Part shown: positions 27-18,709 of the stretch, in pieces
Layout: each line of letters starts with the position of its first letter
How positions within the stretch are numbered: the first letter of the stretch is position 1
NCBI GenBank assembly: GCA_031259795.1
Contig: JAIRLA010000002.1
Span: 1 to 18,709, forward strand
Source of the DNA: Azoarcus sp.
GTDB lineage: Bacteria > Pseudomonadota > Gammaproteobacteria > Burkholderiales > Rhodocyclaceae
Direction of reading: 5' to 3'
DNA: 18,709 bases
Translations under genes and position numbers: made by a program
The notes under the pieces: model-generated
Told to the model about the DNA's origin: nothing
The model's database searches: none
The model's input: only the letters and a program-made list of their open reading frames with translations

Positions 27-102
27 TGGTGGGTGCTGACGGGGTCGAACCGCCGACATTCGCCTTGTAAGGGCGACGCTCTACCAACTGAGCTAAGCAC
101 CC
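27..102 (-). tRNA. tRNA-Val (anticodon UAC), CCA encoded
   Basis: Read on the minus strand, the acceptor stem GGGTGCT pairs with AGCACCC. The anticodon arm TCGCC-CTTACAA-GGCGA places TAC as the anticodon, which reads GUA valine codons. The T-arm GGCGG-TTCGACC-CCGTC closes with one G-U pair. The D-arm carries the usual AGTTGGTAGA loop. The discriminator A is followed by an encoded CCA, giving 76 nt. Its downstream side runs off the window at position 1, so a tRNA cluster beyond the edge cannot be excluded. Confidence 0.96.
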
Positions 103-9918: not shown

Positions 9919-11343
9919 TTAAGCATGGGCAGCGGCCGGAGCCACTATCGGTGCGTTATAAGCCCTCTCGCCGGCGATGGTCTTGAGCATGTTGTAGAAC
10001 ATGATCAGCATGCCCACCAGGAAGAGCGCGCCGCCTACGAGGCGAATGGTCCAGAGTGGATAGGTCGCCTTGACGCCTTCGACGAAGGCATAGGTGAGCG
10101 TGCCATCCGGGTTGACCGCGCGCCAGTACAGACCCTGCATCACCCCGGCGATCCACATCGAAGCGATATAGAGCACGATGCCGACGGTCGCCACCCAGAA
10201 GTGGGTATTGACAAGCTTGGTGCTGTACATCTCGGTCTTGCCGTACAGGCGCGGGAGCAGGAAGTAAACCGAGCCGATGGAAATCAGCGCCACCCAGCCC
10301 AGCGCGCCGGAATGCACGTGGCCGACCGTCCAGTCGGTGTAGTGCGACAGCGCATTGACGGTCTTCACCGACATCATCGGCCCCTCGAAAGTCGACATGC
10401 CGTAGAACGACAGCGAAGTGACCATGAACTTCAGGATCGGATCGGTGCGCAGTTTGTGCCAGGCGCCGGAGAGCGTCATGATGCCGTTGATCATGCCGCC
10501 CCAGGATGGCGCCAGCAGGATGAGCGAGAACAGCATGCCGACGGATTGCGCCCAGTCGGGCAGCGCGGTGTAGTGCAGGTGGTGCGGCCCCGCCCACATG
10601 TAGGTGAAGATGAGCGCCCAGAAGTGCACCACCGACAGGCGGTAAGAATAGATGGGGCGGTCGGCCTGCTTCGGCACGAAGTAGTACATCATCCCCAGGA
10701 AGCCCGCGGTCAGGAAGAAGCCCACCGCGTTGTGGCCGTACCACCACTGCACCATGGCGTCCTGCACTCCGGCGTAGGCGGAGTAGGACTTGAACAGCGA
10801 TACCGGGATTTCCACGCTATTGACGATGTGCAGCAGCGCCACGGCGATGATGAAGGCGCCGTAGAACCAGTTCGCCACATAGATGTGGCTGACCTTGCGC
10901 GTGGCGACGGTGCCGAAGAACACGACCGCGTAGGCCACCCAGACAACGGCGATGGCGATGTCGATCGGCCATTCGAGTTCGGCGTATTCCTTGCCCGTGG
11001 TGATGCCGAGGGGAAGGGTGACGGCGGCCGCGACGATGATGAGTTGCCAGCCCCAGAAGACGAAGGAGGCCAGCCCCGGCGCGAACAACCTGGTATGACA
11101 GGTCCGCTGTACGACATAAAAGGACGTTGCGAACAAGGCGCAACCGCCGAACGCGAAAATCACCGCGTTGGTATGTAGCGGACGCAGCCTGCCAAAATGC
11201 AGGAATTCGTGCACATTCAGTTCGGGCCATATGAGCTGTGCCGCGACGATCACGCCGACCAGCATGCCCACTATGCCCCACACCACCGTCATGATGGCGA
11301 ACTGGCGCACGACTTTGTAGTTATAAGTCGCTTGCGATTGCAT
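9919..11343 (-). CDS. ccoN: cbb3 cytochrome oxidase catalytic subunit I CcoN, 474 aa
   Basis: The haem-copper oxygen-reducing, proton-pumping subunit of the C-type oxidase. About twelve hydrophobic segments. The ligands are all visible: low-spin haem b His57 and His344, CuB His204, His254 and His255, high-spin haem b3 His342, and the cross-linking Tyr248 in [12 protein letters not shown]. Counted from an upstream in-frame GTG these become 60, 347, 207, 257, 258, 345 and 251, the same numbering as the Pseudomonas stutzeri subunit. The ATG at 11343 is chosen because AGAGG lies 8 nt upstream; the GTG at 11352 overlaps that site. It is the first gene of ccoNOQP, behind a class II-type FNR promoter. 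Confidence 0.98.
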
Positions 11344-11423: not shown

Positions 11424-11464
11424 AGGATACCTTCGAGCCAAAACCACAATTTGATACAGATCAA
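11424..11464 (-). promoter_or_regulatory. FNR/ANR-dependent promoter of ccoNOQP
   Basis: A perfect FNR box TTGAT-ACAG-ATCAA lies at 11451-11464, centred at 11457.5. On the minus strand TATCCT (11424-11429, 4 of 6 to TATAAT) would set transcription start near 11417, placing the box at about -40.5. This is essentially the -41.5 spacing of class II FNR activation. The ATG of ccoN lies about 75 nt downstream. FNR/ANR control of cbb3 oxidase genes is well documented in proteobacteria; the start site itself is inferred. Confidence 0.88.
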
Positions 11465-11539: not shown

Positions 11540-11567
11540 AAAAAAAAGGGTGCGCATATACGCACCC
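11540..11567 (-). terminator. Rho-independent terminator downstream of ccoS
   Basis: On the minus strand GGGTGCG-TATATG-CGCACCC (stem 11548-11554 with 11561-11567) is followed by eight uninterrupted Ts (11540-11547). It ends the ccoI-ccoS transcript, and the candidate sRNA, before the ccoN promoter at about 11417. Confidence 0.93.
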
Positions 11568-11641
11568 CCAACCCCAACAGAGAGACAAGAAAACATTGCG
11601 GCTACCGGAAACCGCCGCGGCAGCCAACCACCATATGGACG
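11540..11641 (-). ncRNA. Candidate FNR-activated small RNA between ccoS and ccoN (~102 nt)
   Basis: Read on the minus strand, an FNR box (11675-11688) is followed by CATACT (11648-11653, 4 of 6 to TATAAT). This predicts a start near 11641, with the box at about -41. About 100 nt later comes a strong intrinsic terminator ending in eight Ts. Between them, GGCTGCC pairs with GGTAGCC (11619-11625 with 11600-11606, one G-U pair) as a 5' hairpin. A single-stranded U/C-rich linker (11568-11599) contains TTTTCTTGTCTCTCTGTT. No ORF with a ribosome site is present. A 5' hairpin, a pyrimidine-rich seed-like region and a U-tailed terminator form the usual layout of an Hfq-type sRNA. Alternatively it is only the 3' untranslated end of the ccoI-ccoS mRNA. 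No known RNA family was recognised. Confidence 0.5.
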
Positions 11642-11674
11642 GAAACCAGTATGCCCCCTCTCCACCCTCTCCCC

Positions 11675-11688
11675 TTGACCAAGATCAA
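11675..11688 (-). promoter_or_regulatory. Second FNR/ANR box, 16 bp past the ccoS stop
   Basis: TTGAC-CAAG-ATCAA matches the FNR consensus TTGATnnnnATCAA at 9 of 10 defined bases. It sits between the ccoS stop and a terminator rather than directly before a protein gene. The CATACT hexamer at 11648-11653 on the minus strand lies at class II spacing. Any leftward transcript would meet the terminator at 11540 before reaching ccoN. Confidence 0.72.
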
Positions 11689-11703: not shown

Positions 11704-11940
11704 TTACAAATTTTTCTCGTTTTCACGAGCGCGCCCGCCCTCATTCTTGCCCGGAACCCCCATCGGGTTCTCGCCGCTCTCTTTCTCCCGCCGCGGCTCG
11801 TCCCGATCATCGAGCAAGATGCGATAAGCCGGGCCTTCGAGATCGTCGTATTGCCCCGTGCGCAACGACCACCAGAACAAAACGCCGATGATGAAGACCA
11901 GAATGAGCGAGATCGGAATCAGCAGAAAAAGACTTTCCAT
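11704..11940 (-). CDS. ccoS: cbb3 oxidase maturation protein CcoS, 78 aa
   Basis: A small single-helix protein needed in other bacteria for cofactor insertion into cbb3 oxidase. MESLFLLIPISLILVFIIG forms the N-terminal helix. It is followed by the family signature FWWSLRTGQYDDLEGPAYRI and a DD stretch. The C-terminal 25 residues are charged and Gly/Glu-rich, a somewhat long tail for the family. It lies 7 nt after the ccoI stop with AAGG as a weak ribosome site, so the two are coupled. Confidence 0.95.
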   Translation of the reverse strand: MESLFLLIPISLILVFIIGVLFWWSLRTGQYDDLEGPAYRILLDDRDEPRREKESGENPMGVPGKNEGGRARENEKNL

Positions 11941-15060: not shown

Positions 15061-17325
15061 TTAGTCGTCTTCTTCCGGGACGAAGCTCCGGATCAGGGCC
15101 TGGAAATCGAGGCGGTCGACGAAGCCCTGTAGTTGTGCCAGGAGGGCGAGATGGCCGGGATGTTCGGCGCGCGCTTCTTGCAGGCGCTGGCGCAGGGCGG
15201 ACGCTTCGCCGTGGCGGGCGAGGCGCAGCAGCGTTTCGCGCAGGGCGGCGGGCAGGGCGGCGGCTTGCGGCCATGCGTCTTTGTCCGGGGGGGCGGGGGA
15301 AGGGGGGGGCGCCGCCCGCGAGCCGGACTGGCGGATGTCGATTTCCCGCAACAGGCTCAGGAGGTGGCGCTGCGATTCCGCTTGCGCCTGTGCCTGCATT
15401 TGCGCGCCGCGCTGGCGGCTGTCGGTTTTCATCATGTACCAGCCGCAGATGGTGGCCGGGAGCGCGAGCAGGAGGAAAAATTTGAGCAGGGAGGCGAGTA
15501 GTTGCGAGGAGGGTATTTCCGCTTCGCCGTAGAAATACGCCATGGTGAGCAGGAAGGCTCCGGTCGCGCAGAGAGCCAGCAGCGCCGCCAAGTACAGCGC
15601 GATCCTGGAATTGAAGCGCGTGGCTTTGCCGTGGGGCAGGATGACGCTCCACAGGGAGTGCAGTTGTTCGGCGGCGTTGGCGTTGGTTTTGCAGCGGTCG
15701 CGGCAGTCCGCCTCCAGCGCGCAGCACAGGGAGCAGACCGGCGCTTTCAGGACGGGGCAATACACCATGTCTTCGGATTCGAAGGCGTGGCCGCAGGCCG
15801 AGCAGCGTATGGTTTCTCCCGGTCGCCAGGCGGCTTCGGGCTGGCGCGCCAGGTAGTAGCGGCCCTGTGTCGCCCAGGCCAGCAGCGGGGAGAAAATGAG
15901 CGCCATGCCGAGGACGATGAATGAGGTGAAGGCTTTCGCCATTTCGCCCAGCGCGCCCGAATGGAGCAGGCTGCCGATGGCGATGGCCAGCAGCATGGCG
16001 CACAGGCCGGTATTGAAGTCGTACAGATGACCGCGGCGGAATTCGATGCCCGGCGGCGACAGGCCGAGCGGCTTGTTGATGACGAGATCCGCGACCAACG
16101 CGCCAATCCAGGCGGTGGCGATGACGCCGTAGAAGCCGAGCACCCGTTCGAACGCGTCGAAGATGCCCAGCGCCATCAGCAGCGTGGCGATGAAGATGTT
16201 GAAGATGAGCCAGACCACCCTGCCCGGATGGCTGCGGGTGAGGCGGACGAAGAAGTTCGACCACGCCAGCGAGCCGGCGTAGGCGTTGGTCACGTTGATC
16301 TTGATTTGCGAGATCATCACGAACAGGACGGTCACGGCGACCGCCAGGCCCGGCAGGCCGAAGATTTCCCTGAAGGCGACGAGGAACATGTGGGCGGGTT
16401 CCATGGCCTGTTGCTGCGGCGTCGAGTATTGCATGGCGACGTATGCCAGGAAGGCGCCGCCGGCCATCTTGAGCATGCCGGGCACGATCCAGCCCGGCCC
16501 GGCGGCGATGAGGGCGGCCCACCAGCGCCATTGTTTGCCCGGGGTGGGCGGCGGCATGAAGCGCAGGTAATCCACCTGTTCGGCGATCTGCACGATCAGC
16601 GGGAAGACGACCGCCGCCGCCGCGCCGAACATGGCGGGATGAAAGCCGCCCGCCGGGTGCGATCCGGTGAATTCCACGAAGTCCCGGAAGAGCCAGGGAC
16701 GGGAGAGGGCGAACCAGATGAAGGGCAGGATCAGCAGGAAAAGCCAGAGCGGCTGCGTCCATGTTTGCAGGCGCGAGATGAAAGTGACGCCGCGTATGAC
16801 CAAGGGCAGGATGATGAGCGAAGAGAGCGCATAGCACATGGGCAGCGGCCAGCCCTTGAGCATTTGCAGGGCCATCGCCATGATGGCGGCTTCGAGCGCG
16901 AAAAAGATGAAGGTGAAGATGGCGTAGGTGATCGAGGTGATCGTCGAGCCGAGATAGCCGAAGCCCGCGCCGCGCGTGAGCAGGTCGATGTCGAGGCCAT
17001 GGCGCGCGGCGTGCCAGGCGATGGGAAGGCCGGTGAGGAAGACGATCAGGCCCACGGCCAGGATCGCCCACATGGCGTTGGCAAAGCCGTAATTCACGAC
17101 GATCACCGCGCCGATGGCTTCCATGACCAGGAACGAGAGGGAGCCTATCGCGGTATTGGCGATGCGCCATTCGCTCCATTTGCGGAAACTGCGCGGCGCG
17201 TAGCGGAGCGCGTAGTCTTCCATGGTCTCGTCGGCGACCCACGAGTTGTATTGGCGGCGAAAGCCGGCAACATTCCATGGCGGAATGACGGAAACGGGGG
17301 AAGGGGGGTCGCCGGGCCAGCTCAT
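15061..17325 (-). CDS. NCS1-permease-like membrane protein with Cys-rich cluster, 754 aa; no kinase domain
   Basis: Residues about 25-500 form a twelve-helix transporter-like region of the NCS1 (purine/cytosine permease) type, opening with YNSWVADETMEDYALRYAP and carrying LLTRGAGFGYLGSTITS. A Cys-rich cluster follows (C508, C511, C523, C531, C534, C535, C541, C545), probably binding zinc or another metal. Two more helices (about 573-597 and 606-630) and a Gln/Ala-rich coiled coil ending LLSLLREIDIR (655-665) come next. A Pro-rich linker (671-680) then leads to a helical tail of about 65 residues ending in EEDD. From memory of the family, this order matches the sensory half of NCS1-linked hybrid histidine kinases, but no H-box, ATP-binding or receiver motif is present. 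It may be a stand-alone sensor, a transporter, or a kinase that lost its core. The ribosome site is weak. Confidence 0.82.
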   Translation of the reverse strand: MSWPGDPPSPVSVIPPWNVAGFRRQYNSWVADETMEDYALRYAPRSFRKWSEWRIANTAIGSLSFLVMEAIGAVIVVNYGFANAMWAILAVGLIVFLTGLPIAWHAARHGLDIDLLTRGAGFGYLGSTITSITYAIFTFIFFALEAAIMAMALQMLKGWPLPMCYALSSLIILPLVIRGVTFISRLQTWTQPLWLFLLILPFIWFALSRPWLFRDFVEFTGSHPAGGFHPAMFGAAAAVVFPLIVQIAEQVDYLRFMPPPTPGKQWRWWAALIAAGPGWIVPGMLKMAGGAFLAYVAMQYSTPQQQAMEPAHMFLVAFREIFGLPGLAVAVTVLFVMISQIKINVTNAYAGSLAWSNFFVRLTRSHPGRVVWLIFNIFIATLLMALGIFDAFERVLGFYGVIATAWIGALVADLVINKPLGLSPPGIEFRRGHLYDFNTGLCAMLLAIAIGSLLHSGALGEMAKAFTSFIVLGMALIFSPLLAWATQGRYYLARQPEAAWRPGETIRCSACGHAFESEDMVYCPVLKAPVCSLCCALEADCRDRCKTNANAAEQLHSLWSVILPHGKATRFNSRIALYLAALLALCATGAFLLTMAYFYGEAEIPSSQLLASLLKFFLLLALPATICGWYMMKTDSRQRGAQMQAQAQAESQRHLLSLLREIDIRQSGSRAAPPPSPAPPDKDAWPQAAALPAALRETLLRLARHGEASALRQRLQEARAEHPGHLALLAQLQGFVDRLDFQALIRSFVPEEDD
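15287..15309. repeat. Homopolymeric G/C tracts inside the NCS1-like gene
   Basis: The plus strand has G7 (15287-15293), G5 (15295-15299) and G8 (15302-15309), separated by C and AA. On the coding strand these are C-runs encoding the Pro-rich linker between the coiled coil and the C-terminal tail. Runs of seven and eight are prone to slippage and would shift the frame of the last ~75 codons. Confidence 0.8.
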
Positions 17326-17824: not shown

Positions 17825-18709
17825 TCAATCTCCCGCCCTTTCCACCTCGAACCCCACCACATTGCGCGCCTTCTTGCTGAACTCCACCCCGATCAAATGG
17901 ATGGGCTGATCGAGCGCGCGGTATTTGTCGGCGTATTTCTTTTCCTTGATCTGCTGGAGCGCCTTGCCTTCGGCCCCATCCTCCACCACCTTGAATTCAA
18001 AGAGATAAACCTGCCCGTTGAATTTCACCGCCATGTCCAGCCGCCCCTGATTGCTCACGTCCTCCGGCACGATGTCCATTCCCAGCGCGGCGAAGGACGC
18101 ATAGAACACACTGGCGTAATAGCCCTCGAAATGGTCGATGTCGTTTTTGCGATACCAGTCGTTGGGAATGCTGGCGTAGAGGGAAAAGAAAATTTCCCGG
18201 ATGCGCTCGAAATCATTGATTTCCAGCGCATCGTAAAGGGAGAACCTGCTTTGTTCCGCCTTTTGCGGACTCCCAACCCAGGCGCCCATGACATTACCCG
18301 TCAATGCGCTTCGGACTTCATGATTAGGATAAGTCAGCACAAACGCGACATTGTTTCCCCGCCTTTTCTCCCCGGCAATGGTGAGATAACCGGACTGGAA
18401 CATCAGGGCTTCCGTGGAAATATCACCTACCTCGAAAGTGGAAATCAACTCGGATGAGCTTTCCATTTTCAGGAGCGAAGGCAGATAGACCTTGCGCTCG
18501 GTGAGCATATCGACCAGGAAAGTCGGCGTGCCCGTCTCGAACCAGAAGGGGCGGAATTCGCGCTCCTTGAAAAACAGCAACAGATCGAAAGGGTTGTAGA
18601 CCGCTTCGCCGCGCCAGTTGTAGCCGTTGTACCAGTGGCGGATTTCGTCCCTGTCCAATCCTTCCAATTCAGGTGCGAACACGGTATCGACATCGGCATC
18701 CGTATAGCC
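17825..18709 (-). CDS. AAA-ATPase-like / PD-(D/E)XK nuclease-domain protein, 5'-truncated by the window
   Basis: The C-terminal 294 residues of a protein whose frame is open to the window edge (it begins GYTDADVDTVF). The WYNGYNWRGEAVYNPFDLLLF block is characteristic of proteins pairing an AAA-ATPase-like domain (partly missing here) with a C-terminal PD-(D/E)XK domain of the DUF1703/PDDEXK_9 type. The nuclease-like core is seen as GRLDMAVKF...YLFEFKVVE, with the Asp and the E-x-K signature intact, followed by a QIKEKKYADKY helix. Members are often multicopy in a genome and their physiological role is not settled. The true start lies beyond the right edge; the GTG at 18682 is internal. Confidence 0.9.
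   Translation of the reverse strand, partial: GYTDADVDTVFAPELEGLDRDEIRHWYNGYNWRGEAVYNPFDLLLFFKEREFRPFWFETGTPTFLVDMLTERKVYLPSLLKMESSSELISTFEVGDISTEALMFQSGYLTIAGEKRRGNNVAFVLTYPNHEVRSALTGNVMGAWVGSPQKAEQSRFSLYDALEINDFERIREIFFSLYASIPNDWYRKNDIDHFEGYYASVFYASFAALGMDIVPEDVSNQGRLDMAVKFNGQVYLFEFKVVEDGAEGKALQQIKEKKYADKYRALDQPIHLIGVEFSKKARNVVGFEVERAGD

Follow-up and report, generated by a model that had tools for sequence, protein, structure and literature searches.

What transcript would be served by an FNR box located just behind ccoS, when a terminator stands between that box and ccoN? A sequence-only reading of the window, by which we mean the whole 18,709-nucleotide stretch of DNA analyzed here, had proposed an oxygen-regulated small RNA on the grounds that a 9/10 FNR box, a -10-like hexamer at class II spacing, and a U8-tailed terminator face the same direction. 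The coordinates and a terminator search bore out this arrangement, with all three elements on the minus strand (Table 1). The predicted start, taken from the position of the -10 hexamer, falls at 11640-11641, and by sequence the FNR site occupies the class II position before it, as expected of an FNR-induced small RNA. Within the genome from which the window comes, an assembly of 2.4 Mb that is 78% complete, TTGAYNNNNRTCAA is matched in eight places, two of which are inside this 360-bp gap.

Table 1. Coordinates of the candidate small RNA locus, its neighbors, and other features of the window
Feature	Position	Strand	Basis or remark
FNR box TTGATCTTGGTCAA	11675..11688	-	9/10 to TTGAT-N4-ATCAA; class II position for the predicted small RNA
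-10 hexamer CATACT	11648..11653	-	21-bp gap after FNR box
Predicted small RNA, ~102 nt	11540..11641	-	Start inferred from -10
Predicted 5' hairpin	11600..11625	-	Secondary-structure folding
Conserved core UCUCUGUUGGGGUUGGGG, predicted to pair	11566..11583	-	Invariant alignment rows; complementary sites at start regions
Intrinsic terminator, hairpin GGGTGCGTATATGCGCACCC then U8 (11547-11540)	11540..11569	-	Strong; also called by terminator search
ccoS (FixS family), upstream neighbor	11704..11940	-	Pfam PF03597
Separate perfect FNR box, between terminator and ccoN	11451..11464	-	Motif match
ccoN, downstream neighbor, ATG at 11343	9919..11343	-	ORF list and comparison with relatives
754-aa protein, membrane-like by eye	15061-17325	-	No Pfam match
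tRNA-Val, anticodon tac	27-102	-	
PD-(D/E)XK nuclease-family protein	17825-18682	-	PF08011

The design originally proposed for the RNA held in part. A predicted length of approximately 102 nt and a terminator hairpin at the 3' end were upheld, and a 5' hairpin was again predicted by folding, in the window as well as in ten relatives (11 sequences folded), but the sequence of this hairpin differs among them and is not conserved. The linker is C/U-rich and then G-rich. Folding of the window RNA showed a moderate excess of stability over shuffled sequences (z -1.63; 13 of 200 shuffles were equally stable). The U8 tail and the U-rich linker are compatible with the proposed binding to Hfq. The region had also been described as free of open reading frames between the elements. 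Mechanical open frames do span it, but the 5' half was matched full-length in the closest relative alone.

A DNA search of 100 relatives matched 46 genomes, the own genome included, all of the same family, which from the names of the relatives we take to be the broadly defined Rhodocyclaceae. Apart from the nearest one, the relatives matched mainly in the 3' part, over approximately 48 nt, the 5' half being variable, and UCUCUGUUGGGGUU was identical in all 46 aligned rows. The alignment of the core left out two loci with a partial core and no box (L047, L048) and a duplicate (L031, a second copy from G011). The sequence-only reading had staked itself on conservation of the box and hairpin among close relatives; a covariance model built on the 3' 48 nt of the RNA found the core and terminator in 231 of 297 family genomes (190 of 240 of good quality) and in 54 of 68 genera, and the spacing of box and -10 is kept. 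The terminator stem carries changes on both sides at four of its eight pairs, and 98.8% of cells are paired. In a named collection with at least 119 loci bearing the core, the 80 listed by name include records labeled Azoarcus, Thauera, Aromatoleum, Azonexus, and Dechloromonas, as well as Accumulibacter, Zoogloea, Denitromonas, Uliginosibacterium, and Tepidiphilus. Among the matches listed from an order-wide scan of 399 genomes, two loci with scores of 63-66 bits (L058, L059) come from outside the family, and both keep ccoS, box, core, and ccoN and are genuine members. A further 15 inspected loci from that scan, at 27-41 bits among the matches listed, were rejected; no cco match accompanies them, and they resemble ordinary terminators. 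The conserved functional part of the predicted RNA is its 3' core and not the 5' hairpin.

We then searched genomes with the core complement, CCCCAACCCCAACAGAGA, allowing up to 2 mismatches in 18. Such a search picks out extended pairing, and targets recognized through short seeds would escape it. The 18-nt complement replaced a first pattern, CCAACAGAGA with an ATG within 20 nt, for which there were 35 matches versus 5 with the pattern reversed; several of the pattern's matches were the other strand of the RNA gene itself, and by eye no gene was repeated. In 60 genomes chosen among RNA carriers, it yielded 116 matches, of which 60 were the RNA's own gene and 56 lay elsewhere; with the pattern reversed, these genomes gave 7 sites. 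Three sites were found in 19 family genomes without a match to the covariance model and 8 in 40 genomes of other families; these 59 RNA-less genomes thus held 11 sites, versus 5 for the reversed pattern. In conditional tests the excess over the reversed pattern had p = 7e-11, that over family genomes lacking the RNA p = 1e-4, and that over the outgroup p = 1e-6; these values ignore ancestry, and the site counts are not phylogenetically independent.

The location of the sites was assessed for 81 of them, namely the 56 above as a second set and 25 first-set sites, likewise with up to 2 mismatches, among the matches listed. One of the 81 (L273) comes from a genome without the RNA (G037); L223, L226, and L047 stand outside the 81, and L367 and L372 were dropped as being the RNA gene itself. 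An ATG-initiated frame began within 45 nt downstream of 67 of the 81 sites and within 12 nt of 42 (25 of the 81 being among the matches listed), as compared to 12 and 1, respectively, on the opposite strand, and to 23% and 8% of random positions. The idea for this measure came from the first set (21 of 25, among the matches listed), and the second set, fetched afterward, gave by itself 46 of 56 within 45 nt and 30 of 56 within 12 nt, with 7 and 1 on the opposite strand. Only 2 of the 11 sites in RNA-less genomes precede a frame within 45 nt, both frames being short (62 and 64 codons). The enrichment of complementary sites at start regions only in RNA-bearing genomes supports a trans-acting regulatory RNA.

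The pairing itself was examined in two further ways. G-U pairing is kept by 58 of 111 mismatches at start-region sites, as compared to 4 of 22 in RNA-less genomes; the most frequent mismatch, A to G at position 14, at the same time makes for a better ribosome-binding site, and the G-U excess is therefore partly confounded. Duplexes of the window core with 15 named sites had energies of -35 to -48 kcal/mol, the shuffled means being -16 to -26, and for one superoxide dismutase site (L374) and both folE2 sites the observed energy was reached by some shuffles. No duplex energy is given for L284. Complementarity to translation-start regions beyond chance thus holds family-wide and is weak in the own genome, whose single non-self site has 3 mismatches and stands before a short frame, transposon-like by eye; this candidate is not convincing. 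Among the window genes, no strong target candidate emerged from raw duplex energies taken with no shuffle control. Across the own genus, allowing up to 3 mismatches, 16 of 33 sites precede an ATG-initiated frame versus 1 of 33 on the opposite strand, a signal that is weaker but present.

The predicted target genes vary between genera, and few recur. One that recurs is tusE/dsrC, recognized by N-terminal sequence in seven genomes of four genera (L226, L270, L345, L346, L362, L370, L371) and by NCBIfam matches over the cut-off in three of them (L346, L371, L362). At L346 the site is complementary at 18 of 18 bases. Genome G524 carries a rare change, a C in the second G-run of the RNA, and its tusE site has the matching G, such that 18/18 complementarity is kept. 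Fe superoxide dismutase was the best NCBIfam match for two targets (L267, L374; E <1e-87, under the curated cut-off of the model), peroxiredoxin C was over the cut-off (L343), and FolE2 was just under it, with its frame cut by the end of the stretch (L358). Further NCBIfam matches under the cut-off were WrbA-like (L284, L338) and SodC-like (L344). Pfam matches among the targets comprise CydA, isocitrate lyase, acyl-CoA and acetaldehyde dehydrogenases, and a 4Fe-4S ferredoxin; a catechol-dioxygenase-like protein, glutathione S-transferase, and radical SAM; and phasin, 2Fe-2S ferredoxin, thioesterases, glutathione peroxidase, FKBP, and a DsrE-like protein. In the own genus, two genomes have in common a class-V aminotransferase that is NifS/IscS-like in appearance (L419, L432). 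Also in this genus, a recurrent 88-93 aa protein of three genomes has a core-complementary site with 2-3 mismatches 7-14 nt before its ATG (L402, L423, L424); no Pfam match was found for it when the L423 protein was searched.

We consider it highly probable that the locus encodes an FNR-activated, trans-acting small RNA of approximately 100 nt that would act as a repressor, and the comparisons support the earlier suggestion of an oxygen-regulated small RNA. At low oxygen, FNR would bind at about -41 and recruit RNA polymerase in the class II manner, and transcription would end at the U8 terminator, ahead of a separate ccoN promoter. The core would then pair, over up to 18 of 18 bases, with mRNA leaders just upstream of the start codon, where the duplex very probably covers the ribosome-binding site and would lower translation. 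As oxygen runs out, the RNA would probably shut off oxygen-era genes. The predicted targets include enzymes of aerobic life, among them superoxide dismutases, peroxidases, a catechol-dioxygenase-like enzyme, and FolE2, together with Fe-S and sulfur-relay proteins, and the RNA would thus be the repressing arm of FNR. It would be an FNR-controlled small RNA of the family including Azoarcus, Thauera, Aromatoleum, Dechloromonas, and Accumulibacter. Denitrification, the breakdown of aromatic compounds, and phosphorus removal are well-known activities of these organisms. The genes named above supply a list of predicted targets that can be tested.

The direction of regulation deserves separate consideration, as the RNA might pair with the same leaders and mainly stabilize or activate the mRNAs. 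The sign of regulation is not given by sequence alone, and a distance of 20-45 nt separates some sites from the ATG downstream of them, in line with such activation. Against this stand the 42 sites ending within 12 nt of the ATG, at which pairing would cover the ribosome-binding region, and the presence of several aerobic-type enzymes among the targets; we therefore regard activation as unlikely.

A different origin for the RNA, as a processed 3' end of the ccoI-ccoS transcript with the FNR box a relic or of other use, seems to us very unlikely. No terminator was found in the window sequence between ccoS and the FNR box, and hence a read-through RNA would likewise end at 11540. The promoter argues otherwise. 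Upstream sequence of at least 230 nt was available for 153 distinct related loci, and 150 of them have an FNR box in the interval from 55 to 230 nt ahead of the core. In 131 of these 150, a -10-like hexamer begins at a distance of 21-22 bp from the box, as compared to 0-5 loci for any other offset between 8 and 45; this arrangement is not chance, and it is kept where the surrounding 5' sequence is not. Of the three exceptions, L180 has a box nearer to the core, and the other two (L027, L135) have an OmpW-family gene between FNR box and core. In these two the core directly follows that gene, and the RNA there would be its 3' UTR, a situation that resembles the processing model. A promoter of its own and processing of ccoI-ccoS may coexist as sources of the RNA.

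We think it extremely unlikely that ccoN has an attenuating leader made up of the box and terminator, in which FNR-driven transcription either stops early or reads into ccoN. The model is in accord with the placement of ccoN approximately 200-400 nt downstream of the core in most loci. In most loci, however, a second FNR box lies between the core and ccoN, and attenuation leaves both the invariant core and the target sites unexplained. The neighborhood also varies. Among the matches listed for the 119 loci of the named collection, 114 have the FNR box, and both ccoS and ccoN flank 91; one of the two flanks 27, where the stretch often ends, and neither flanks the remaining locus (L098), which is unrelated and in which the hairpin is absent. 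Two loci (L109, 1880-3465; L182, 2013-3262) have regulator genes of the Rrf2 family and the Crp/FNR type separating the RNA from ccoN, whose place after ccoS and the RNA is taken by ndk in a Zoogloea record (L151). Box and core persist in all three, which makes the RNA separable from ccoN. The loci with the regulator genes (L109, L182) combine regulators, RNA, and oxidase in one place.

The reverse case was found as well. Of 24 family genomes scored as lacking the RNA, 18 have a ccoN match, at 19 loci, and the RNA is thus dispensable for keeping ccoN. Upstream sequence exists for 15 of these loci, the other 4 beginning at the edge of a contig; none of the 15 has an intact core upstream of ccoN, and one (L204) has an apparent decayed copy. 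It is scarcely credible that the core instead has a protein as its partner, which it would bind or titrate, or acts as a sponge for another RNA, with the complementary sites being a leader motif read by that partner. The core is rich in G and its length exceeds that of a usual seed, but the sites are enriched in RNA-bearing genomes and not in the 59 RNA-less ones, and their mismatches favor G-U pairs.

How does the candidate compare with known small RNAs? An Rfam scan at threshold recovered the tRNA alone in the window and nothing in 20 relatives, and no title or abstract describing this RNA was found in the open literature, most subscription papers being outside that coverage. SorY (RF02651) shares a weak common stretch, CUC-CUGUUGG, before the terminator; of 10 loci scanned with its model, 7 scored 23-36 bits, with 28.2 bits in the window and a best score of 35.5 in a relative, below the threshold of 111, and the similarity in the window is confined to the linker and terminator. 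The Bordetella S17 RNA (RF02278, a Betaproteobacteria toxic small RNA) is described, in the text available, as having a C/U-rich conserved core before its terminator and sites near the ribosome-binding sites of many mRNAs (PMC11722255). The present RNA is similar in having a conserved core before the terminator and sites at start regions. The word FNR does not occur in the available main text of the S17 paper (PMC11722255). Identity of the two was rejected, S17 having another sequence and a separate locus in the same genomes: RF02278 (threshold 50 bits) was absent among matches at this locus up to E=10, and it exceeded its cut-off in 10 of 12 genomes, always at another place, the own genome's member being at G000:C135. 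One genome has five RF02278 copies over the cut-off within 3.6 kb (G458:C1:3305531-3309062), plus one elsewhere.

Closer in layout is the neisserial FnrS/AniS, which the accessible account gives as 108 nt, with a class II FNR site, a 5' stem-loop, an unstructured region, and a terminator (PMC3032703). The candidate has the same layout. The gonococcal gene lies, according to the same account, near bacterioferritin genes (PMC3032703). The AniS covariance model (RF02274) scored 19 bits versus a threshold of 50, and the FnrS family gave no covariance match in the window region at threshold or up to E=10, in agreement with the sequence-only reading, which had claimed no sequence relation to either. 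Enterobacterial FnrS is, in the portions of the literature available, activated by FNR from a site at about -42 and regulates the E. coli sodB and folE operons among others (PMC3688515), sodB being a target of both RyhB and FnrS (PMC4114697). The position of the FNR site is similar here, and the predicted sodB and folE-type targets parallel those two. The candidate is unlike FnrS in belonging to another taxonomic group, in its mostly fixed cco location, and in its long near-perfect pairing core beside the terminator, and the GTP cyclohydrolase target would be FolE2 rather than FolE. Our best reading is that the RNA would function like enterobacterial FnrS, although unrelated to it in sequence. 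We give an even chance to a broader proposal, in which it would be an independent Rhodocyclaceae RNA counterpart of FNR, with a constrained core whose near-perfect complements of 16-18 nt in mRNA leaders would act as a portable operator gained and lost by lineage, and with superoxide dismutase and GTP cyclohydrolase as targets on which it and FnrS would have converged. The pair would offer a natural comparison of two unrelated RNAs under the same regulator with similar targets.
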